A stretch of DNA of 22,524 bases from a virus: positions 1 through 22,524 of IMG/VR virus record IMGVR_UViG_3300032220_000171; one strand, given 5' to 3'. Of the stretch, positions 11,092 to 12,982 are shown one piece after another (within the stretch, counting starts at the first letter, position 1; the number at the start of each line of letters is the position of its first letter). A model generated the notes under the pieces. That model was not told where the DNA came from. It saw only the letters and a list, made by a program, of their open reading frames with translations, and made no database searches. A program made the translations under genes and the position numbers.

Positions 11092-11658
11092 ATGAGCACC
11101 ATCAACACGACCAACCTCAAGAACCCCAGCAGCGGCAGCAACAACGTCGTGCTGAATGCTGATGGCACGTCCACGCTGACACCCAGCAACATCATCAAAA
11201 GCGGCACTGCCGTCGCCTCGACCAGCGGCACCAGCATTGACTTTACTGGGATTCCCTCTTGGGTGAAGCGGATTACGGTGATGCTTAGTGGGGTGAGTAC
11301 GAGCGGAACAAGCAATCCTCAAGTTCAACTGGGAGATGCTGGCGGCATTGAAACAACTGGCTATTCAGCAACTTCAACAAACCAAAGCGGAACGGTTGCG
11401 TCTTATACTACGGGGTTTGGGGTAAACAATGCAAGTGCATCAGCACTTTTATATGGCAATTTTACATTCACTTTAATTAGTGCGAGTTCTTTTCTGTGGT
11501 CCATGACGGGGGCGATTAGTTTAGGCGCTGGCGGCGGATCATACTATGTGGCTGGATCTAAATCCCTATCCGAAACGCTTACCCAAGTGCGCATCACCAC
11601 CGTGAACGGCACCGATACATTCGATGCGGGCACCATCAACATTCTTTACGAGGGCTGA
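11092..11658 (+). CDS. Tail fibre protein, paralogue B (variable core)
   Basis: This 188-aa neighbour of paralogue A starts 3 nt after it. Its N-terminus is shorter and different (MSTINTTNLKNPSSGSNNVV), but residues about 38-70 (GTAVASTSGTSIDFTGIPSW, VKRITVM) and the last 26 (VRITTVNGTDTFDAGTINIL) match paralogue A. The core (DNA about 11310-11560) is again AT-richer and unrelated in sequence. Two paralogues side by side, with conserved borders and different cores, suggest duplication followed by module replacement, or two alternative receptor binders in one virion. The stop overlaps the next start by one base. Confidence 0.82.
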   Translation: MSTINTTNLKNPSSGSNNVVLNADGTSTLTPSNIIKSGTAVASTSGTSIDFTGIPSWVKRITVMLSGVSTSGTSNPQVQLGDAGGIETTGYSATSTNQSGTVASYTTGFGVNNASASALLYGNFTFTLISASSFLWSMTGAISLGAGGGSYYVAGSKSLSETLTQVRITTVNGTDTFDAGTINILYEG

Positions 11659-11792
11659 TGGCCGTCAAATCCAGGACCGGCACCGCAGCACTGGAACGCA
11701 AGGCCAAGCGCCCCAAGCTCACCAGGCAGGGCCAAGGTACCCGCTCCAAGCCCAGCCACGGACGCAAGAAGACACGCGGCCAGGGTCGCTAG
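11658..11792 (+). CDS. 44-aa highly basic peptide, conserved in cyanophages
   Basis: ATG at 11658 overlaps the fibre stop, and TAG lies at 11790-11792. The product is 44 aa with seven Lys, eight Arg and a single acidic residue (Glu13). It includes KLTRQGQGTRSKPSHGRKK and ends in TRGQGR. Tiny basic proteins with a G-Q-G ... S-x-P-x-x-G-[RK]-K-K ... R-G-Q-G-R pattern are familiar from cyanophage genomes, usually unnamed. Its charge suggests nucleic acid or membrane-surface binding; its place between fibre and lysis genes suggests late expression. The function is unknown. Confidence 0.75.
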   Translation: MAVKSRTGTAALERKAKRPKLTRQGQGTRSKPSHGRKKTRGQGR

Positions 11793-11822: not shown

Positions 11823-12092
11823 ATGATTGAGAATCTAATCGTGGGCGTGGCCTGCCTTGTACTTGGTGGTTTCGGCGGTAGTGCATCCCGCTGGGTAAGC
11901 CGTCGCGGTGAGGAAGATCAAGCCGCAAACCTAGCCATCGCCAAGCTATCCGCAGGCGTTGAGCACATCGCCACTGAGCTTACCGCCATCCGCGAAGACA
12001 TGCGCACCGACCGCCGCGAGCTCTTTGGACGCCTTGGTACGGCAGAGCAGCGGATCGCTAGGCTTGAAGCAACCAATCACGCCAACCCATGA
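11823..12092 (+). CDS. Membrane-anchored coiled-coil protein, probable lysis accessory
   Basis: An 89-aa protein with one N-terminal transmembrane helix (residues about 3-24, LIVGVACLVLGGFGG) followed by two arginines and a long charged helix (residues 30-85, with heptad-like IATELTAIREDMRTD and IARLE). This is the shape of phage lysis accessory or holin-like proteins such as the XhlA type, though here the membrane segment is N-terminal. It is followed by a small hydrophobic protein and an endolysin, coupled by ATGA at 12089-12092. The start ATG follows AGG by a few bases. A holin role is possible; the family is not certain. Confidence 0.75.
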   Translation: MIENLIVGVACLVLGGFGGSASRWVSRRGEEDQAANLAIAKLSAGVEHIATELTAIREDMRTDRRELFGRLGTAEQRIARLEATNHANP

Positions 12093-12232
12093 GCATCGAC
12101 GCCAACACCGCAGCAGGCATCGCCATTGCCGTTGCAGCTGCTAGTGAGATCATCGGCATCAGCCCGTTGAAGTCCAACAGCATCATCCAGCTGGTCCTCC
12201 AGTTCCTGCGGCTTGCCTTCCCAAAGCGCTGA
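12089..12232 (+). CDS. 47-aa hydrophobic protein, holin candidate (zero-frame product)
   Basis: The product starts MSIDANTAAGIAIAVAAASE and has two hydrophobic segments (residues 8-24 and 31-44) separated by SPLKSN, ending in the basic FPKR. It lies directly before the endolysin and overlaps the preceding gene by ATGA. Size, two short hydrophobic stretches and a basic tail suit a small holin or pinholin-like protein, but no family could be confirmed by eye. Its last sense codons form a slippery heptamer, so this may be only the shorter of two products. Confidence 0.72.
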   Translation: MSIDANTAAGIAIAVAAASEIIGISPLKSNSIIQLVLQFLRLAFPKR

Positions 12233-12402
12233 CCGTCGGGCCACGGCTCGACGCTGCCATCAAGGATTGGCACGCCACGCAGCCGCCATCCATGCCTGAG
12301 CCGGTGATCGAGCATCACCCGATTGACACTGAGGCGCAAACTGGCGACAGCCACCTACTTGGTGGTCCGATCAGCATCCACTCTCCATGGGAACGTGACT
12401 AA
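12089..12402 (+). CDS. Proposed -1 frameshift extension of the 47-aa membrane protein (104 aa)
   Basis: A -1 slip on CCCAAAG (12220-12226) would replace the last Arg-stop with 58 more residues, beginning ALTVGPRLDAAIKDW and ending PISIHSPWERD at TAA 12400-12402. The added tail is hydrophilic and His/Asp/Glu-rich, so the long form would be a membrane protein with a soluble domain. The extension frame has no Shine-Dalgarno before its only ATG (12292), uses fewer rare codons than the overlapping alternative frame, and stops exactly over the endolysin GTG (GTGACTAA). Its product and role are inferred, not demonstrated. Base 12226 is read twice. Confidence 0.5.
12220..12253 (+). promoter_or_regulatory. 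Candidate -1 frameshift signal in the lysis cassette
   Basis: CCCAAAG at 12220-12226 is phased C CCA AAG in the zero frame, the X XXY YYZ pattern. After a 7-nt spacer (12227-12233) an 8-bp stem can form between 12234-12241 (CGTCGGGC) and 12246-12253 (GCTCGACG), including one G-U pair, with loop CACG. Spacer length and GC-rich stem match known frameshift stimulators. There is no T-run, so it is not a terminator. Slippage efficiency on this heptamer cannot be judged from sequence. Confidence 0.55.
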
Positions 12403-12982
12403 CAACGCACCGATCACGCTGGAACAACTGTTCCGCTTCAATCGTGGAATGCCGCACCAGCTCGCCGCCATTGCCGAGCTTGAGCAGGACATCCTCGTCT
12501 CTGGCTTCAGCGTGGCCATGCGCCGCGATCGGCCATGGTTCAAGACCTGGAGTCAGTCGGGGCAGTTCAAACCTGACAGCCCCTTTGACTTCCGCGTTAC
12601 GCCAAACATTGTTTATGGCGAGTTTGCGCTCTACCAAGAAGTCCGCCGCTTCGACCACCAGTACCAGTGCGACACCGCGCTAAAACTGGCTCAATTCCTG
12701 GAGCGCGTCAGGCTGGCGTTTGGCAACAATACCATCGTCATTACCAGCGGCTACAGGCCCCCGATCGTGAATCGGCAGGTAGGTGGTGCATCATCCTCCG
12801 AGCACCTGTACGACGCCCCCGGAGTCGGGGCAGTTGACTTCTACGTGGAGAAGACCGACATCTATGAAGTGCAGAAGTTTTGCGATCGTATCTGGCCGTA
12901 CTCGATAGGCTATGGAGCGCCCAAGGGCTTTGTGCATCTTGGCATCCGCAAAGGTCAACCTCGCGTACGTTGGGATTATTGA
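12395..12982 (+). CDS. Endolysin, peptidase M15 family (D-Ala-type carboxypeptidase/endopeptidase fold)
   Basis: From GTG 12395 the protein is 195 aa. Its C-terminal half carries the M15 metallopeptidase signature: SGYRPPIVN with R121, then S135-E-H137, D148 in GVGAVDFYV, H181 in GFVHLGI, and a terminal RVRWDY. H137, D148 and H181 should bind zinc. The N-terminal part (ITLEQLFRFNRGMPHQ, RRDRPWFKTW) is a conserved substrate or wall-binding region. It follows the holin candidates and is the lytic enzyme. A longer frame from TTG 12323 exists, but 12395 is preferred because homologues as I recall them begin near ITLEQLF and the start couples to the stop at 12400-12402. The start is moderately certain. 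Confidence 0.88.
   Translation: MTNNAPITLEQLFRFNRGMPHQLAAIAELEQDILVSGFSVAMRRDRPWFKTWSQSGQFKPDSPFDFRVTPNIVYGEFALYQEVRRFDHQYQCDTALKLAQFLERVRLAFGNNTIVITSGYRPPIVNRQVGGASSSEHLYDAPGVGAVDFYVEKTDIYEVQKFCDRIWPYSIGYGAPKGFVHLGIRKGQPRVRWDY

Follow-up and report, generated by a model that had tools for sequence, protein, structure and literature searches.

We analysed a 22,524-nt stretch of DNA (hereafter the window; positions 1 to 22,524 of IMG/VR record IMGVR_UViG_3300032220_000171) from a tailed phage. Judged by the endolysin, the cultured phages nearest to it are the Synechococcus siphoviruses S-CBS3 and S-LBS1. The region shown (11,823 to 12,402) contains a gene for a 47-aa membrane protein, preceded by an 89-aa ORF and followed by the endolysin gene (Table 1). 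The stop codon of the 89-aa ORF overlaps the ATG of the 47-aa ORF (ATGA), and the 89-aa protein was also detected upstream of the 47-aa gene in many relatives. The 3' end of the 47-aa ORF reads TTC CCA AAG CGC TGA and includes the only CCCAAAG on the plus strand of the window, separated from a potential hairpin by a 7-nt spacer (12227-12233). Slippage into the -1 frame at this heptamer would join the first 46 residues of the short ORF to a 58-codon extension, giving a predicted 104-aa long form with the residues PKALTVG across the slip site. A first-pass annotation had proposed a programmed frameshift here, and we found the heptamer, 7-nt spacer, 8-bp stem, 58-codon -1 frame and endolysin-start overlap all to be present at the coordinates that it gave.

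Table 1. Features at the putative holin-endolysin junction of the window
Feature	Position	Strand	Remarks
89-aa protein	11823..12092	+	N-terminal hydrophobic helix, rest coiled-coil-like
Short product, 47-aa membrane protein, putative holin	12089..12232	+	0-frame ORF; phrog_22542
Slippery heptamer C CCA AAG	12220..12226	+	0-frame slip phase, one codon before the 0-frame stop
8-bp hairpin, possible stimulator	12234..12253	+	12234-12241/12246-12253, one G-U
-1 frame extension	12226..12402	+	58 codons (12226-12399) and TAA (12400-12402)
Endolysin (Peptidase_M15_3)	12395..12982	+	GTG start at 12395 overlaps the 3' end of the extension

Two further features of the surroundings were noted. A 44-aa Arg/Lys-rich ORF (11658-11792) follows the last tail-region ORF and has a weak match to phrog_516 ('unknown function'). 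The endolysin of the window carries, after its N-terminal 57 aa, the M15 peptidase domain alone, while those of S-CBS3 and S-LBS1 (L023 4001-5080 and L024 4001-5107) include an additional Phage_lysozyme domain (PF00959), located between the N-terminal part and M15.

Relatives anchored on the endolysin were examined first; in these the extension again lay in the -1 frame, and the heptamer position was occupied by C CCA AAG or A AAA AAG. An alignment of the fused proteins was then scanned against viral contigs, giving 574 relatives, of which 80 were kept. Scans with the short domain only and with the extension only supplied further relatives, and three metagenome-assembled bacterial contigs were added. 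Loci with both parts were identified by HMM searches of six-frame translations, and 109 of them were distinct. The extension was found in the -1 frame in 108 of these and as a separate gene in one (S-CRES1); a 0-frame fusion was found in none. The first-pass annotation had proposed that relatives be checked for conservation of the heptamer, and it was conserved: a V VVA AAR heptamer was located 7 or 10 nt before the 0-frame stop in 107 of the 108 distinct -1 loci (AAAAAAG in 70, CCCAAAG in 32, CCCAAAA in 4 and GGGAAAG in 1), the sole exception (L061) reading A AAG AAG. As background, the ends of 5,373 ORFs (minimum length 60 aa) from these loci were examined; such a heptamer stood 7 or 10 nt before the stop at 9 of them (<0.2%), and several of these nine were this gene.

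Three heptamer families (A AAA AAG, C CCA AAR and, in S-EIVl, G GGA AAG) swap at one site. When 64 heptamers were tested in E. coli, V VVA AAG types were the most efficient -1 shifters, with C CCA AAG reaching up to 54% shifting in the presence of the IS3 pseudoknot stimulator (PMC4066793). At the A-type sites, the codon before the two lysines ended in A in 45/45 representatives, though it encodes A, G, P, R, Q or E; with a background of A-ending codons of roughly 4-51% by amino acid this corresponds to a log10 P of about -38, which is an overstatement because the representatives share ancestry. Among FPK-type genes, CCA AAR followed a C in 18/18 of those with an extension versus 6/15 of those without. 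Relatives without the extension mostly had no heptamer at that place, and several kept one. The arrangement is present in the cultured phages S-CBS1, S-CBS3, KBS-S-2A and S-EIVl and in the T7-like cyanopodoviruses S-B28, 7B11-B and WH11-B. Other T7-like phages, P60, S-CBP42, S-SRP01 and S-CBP1 (L356, L358, L359 and L360), encode related short membrane proteins with a charged 0-frame tail and no such heptamer.

We found that the -1 frame carries the marks of a coding sequence. Over 43 pairs, 623 of 963 substitutions fell at third positions of the -1 frame, and across the family dN/dS in the extension was 0.14 for this frame versus 1.4 and 2.3 in the other two. Stops in the -1 frame of homologues, which according to the earlier annotation would have spoken against a shift, were looked for and none was seen in 146 extensions; the other frames held 474 and 765, a contrast that is descriptive and not a test because the extensions were delimited by their stop. 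As judged from these comparisons, the -1 frame is coding and under purifying selection. The length of the extension is 58 residues in the window and about 50-95 in relatives. A sequencing error or pseudogene was rejected, given the many independent contigs and the dN/dS.

A coding -1 frame could also belong to a separate small gene with an internal start codon, and this is how the extension is annotated in S-CBS1 (gp22/gp23), S-CBS3 (gp21/gp22) and S-EIVl. A related case is offered by S-CRES1, in which the C-terminal motif of the extension (PLGG-M-L-APW) lies in a gene with its own start (gp104; L028 2206-2502) and the short protein continues in frame into a tail of its own. No start codon (ATG/GTG/TTG), however, was present between the heptamer and the -1 stop preceding it in 61 of 63 representatives; in two loci (L016 and L246) that stop abuts the heptamer. 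The first start codon downstream was beyond codon 25 in 28/63, with none at all in L282, and the conserved residues of the extension begin before these late starts. A separate gene would also leave the conserved heptamer unexplained. Since the starts are missing, we rejected this reading as highly improbable.

Ribosomes could instead terminate at the UGA and restart in the -1 frame at an overlapping NUG codon (CUG in the window), as a CTG, TTG or GTG overlaps the stop in 46/63 representatives. We consider such reinitiation slightly less probable still: the remaining 17/63 have CTA, GTA or TTA in its place, 62/63 have no Shine-Dalgarno-like motif upstream of the heptamer, and CUG is a poor start codon in bacteria. 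Conservation of V VVA AAR would be unaccounted for here too, and together with the NTA codons it led us to reject this mechanism. Finally, the A6 runs seen in many relatives would suit slippage of the transcript, rather than of the ribosome, as the source of the long form. Transcriptional slippage normally requires longer homopolymers, though, and 37 of the 108 distinct -1 loci carry C CCA AAR or G GGA AAG, in which runs reach only 3-4 identical bases; because of these loci it was rejected as the least probable of the explanations considered.

We searched for stimulatory elements around the slip site. The stem of the window is modestly unusual (z = -1.95, 7/200 shuffles). Its five outer pairs are largely kept in ten members of the window's clade, with two positions changed on both sides in a compensatory manner, V-GAC versus I-GAT among them. 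No uniform stimulatory structure was found family-wide by z-scores, RNAalifold or Rfam, and the other clades are without the window's stem. The first-pass annotation had held that loss of the heptamer or stem from relatives that keep the genes would count against a frameshift: heptamer and extension were kept, but the stem was lost outside the window's clade, so that in this one respect the comparison goes partly against it. With the stem confined to one clade, we regard it as a possible local stimulator and not as a defining part of the system.

Taken together, the conserved heptamer, the coding -1 frame and the lack of an own start make it very likely (probability about 0.94), on comparative grounds, that programmed -1 ribosomal frameshifting operates in this gene. 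The core claim of the first-pass annotation, a -1 shift joining the 47-aa protein to the 58-residue extension, is borne out by the same evidence. What the sequence comparisons support is the slip site itself, a -1 frame that codes for protein, and the absence of an independent start; that ribosomes do shift here, and with what efficiency, is our inference. According to the proposed mechanism, the majority of ribosomes would terminate at the UGA at 12230 and release the 47-aa membrane protein. A fraction would slip one base back on C CCA AAG, the P-site pairing moving from CCA to CCC and the A-site pairing from AAG to AAA. These ribosomes would read 58 more codons, producing the 104-aa form with an added tail that is probably cytoplasmic, and would end at the UAA at 12400, atop the endolysin start. 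The tail may modulate the holin or recruit a partner, and/or the shift may tune coupled endolysin translation.

The identity of the short form was considered separately. AlphaFold predicts two helices (5-24 and 31-43; mean pLDDT 80), and hydropathy is clear for the first helix alone. For a representative extension the prediction shows a long helix and, after it, a tail that is poorly determined (mean pLDDT 74, pTM 0.37). Neither protein matched a holin profile; the short form hit phrog_22542 ('unknown function'), with nothing significant in Pfam, and the extension profile gave nothing meaningful against PDB sequences (E 0.38). In T7-like cyanophages its neighbourhood includes the genes for the tail fibre and the terminase small subunit, as does that of holin gene 17.5 in T7. 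The earlier label 'putative holin' agrees with position and predicted helices, although not with any holin family profile, and on the former two the short form is probably a holin. In three loci (L011, L019 and L022) another small hydrophobic protein (containing VNLTPTPKD) lies directly before the endolysin, as though it had taken the place of the putative holin.

An endolysin gene lies downstream in 52 of the 61 representatives with enough sequence, and its start overlaps the extension in 50 of these 52, being placed 1-29 nt before the extension stop. This nearly constant overlap suggests that the shift may also tune endolysin translation. A stronger version would make this the main purpose: only shifted ribosomes would reach the endolysin start, so that the holin-to-endolysin ratio is set and the tail is secondary. 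Such a role is compatible with frameshifting and competes over its purpose only, and it would suit relatives without the extension, in most of which no more than about 25 nt separate the endolysin start from the stop of the short ORF. We think it rather unlikely, as the amino-acid sequence of the extension is under purifying selection and the extension persists in podoviruses with no endolysin detected directly downstream. A broader proposal, which we offer tentatively and at less than even odds, is that of a lysis module widespread among cyanophages, whose single shift site would fix how much short holin is made relative to a C-terminally extended form, a regulator or effector, and would also set endolysin translation through the overlapping start. 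It would act as a translational clock common to cyanosiphoviruses and, as far as the holin forms are concerned, to T7-like cyanopodoviruses.

Most known programmed frameshifts of tailed phages are in genes for tail chaperones or capsid proteins. In the open-access papers searched we found no earlier report of a holin or cyanophage lysis-region frameshift of this kind; an announcement of Streptomyces phages lists computational frameshift predictions near holins (PMC9671017). A conserved endolysin-adjacent frameshift across several cyanophage groups would imply that a second product has been overlooked or wrongly annotated in S-CBS1, S-CBS3, KBS-S-2A, S-EIVl, S-B28 and relatives. It would also offer a testable handle on how picocyanobacterial viruses proportion their lysis proteins, which bears on burst and on carbon release in surface waters. 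The three slippery heptamers that interchange at one site form a natural series.

Several known systems resemble parts of this arrangement. V VVA AAG heptamers, including A AAA AAG and GGGAAAG, are used in dnaX, IS3-family and T7-like gene 10A/10B frameshifts, whereas the present family has no family-wide conserved stem or upstream Shine-Dalgarno stimulator and makes another type of product. In MS2, upstream frameshifting (in the coat gene) or termination is tied to expression of the lysis gene, but this is an RNA phage without a conserved fused protein product. The dual-product holins 24.1/24.1* and 26/26* of SPP1, like S105/S107 of lambda, yield two membrane-protein forms from one lysis gene. 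Their forms differ N-terminally by dual starts, while the putative forms described here differ by a frameshifted C-terminal extension, and the opposing roles of the former are for the latter only a supposition. The tail assembly chaperones (lambda G/GT, P2 E/E+E') offer a parallel in layout: there too a slippery heptamer close to the 3' end of a small ORF yields a short protein and one with a C-terminal extension, and the arrangement is conserved across phage lineages. In its position the gene of the window does not fit a G/GT-type chaperone, as it is not between the major tail and tape-measure genes; it lies after the tail genes and immediately before the endolysin. Unlike the chaperones, to which its products are unrelated, the gene encodes a membrane protein, and its neighbour is the endolysin gene or, in T7-like phages, the genes for the tail fibre and the terminase small subunit lie nearby.
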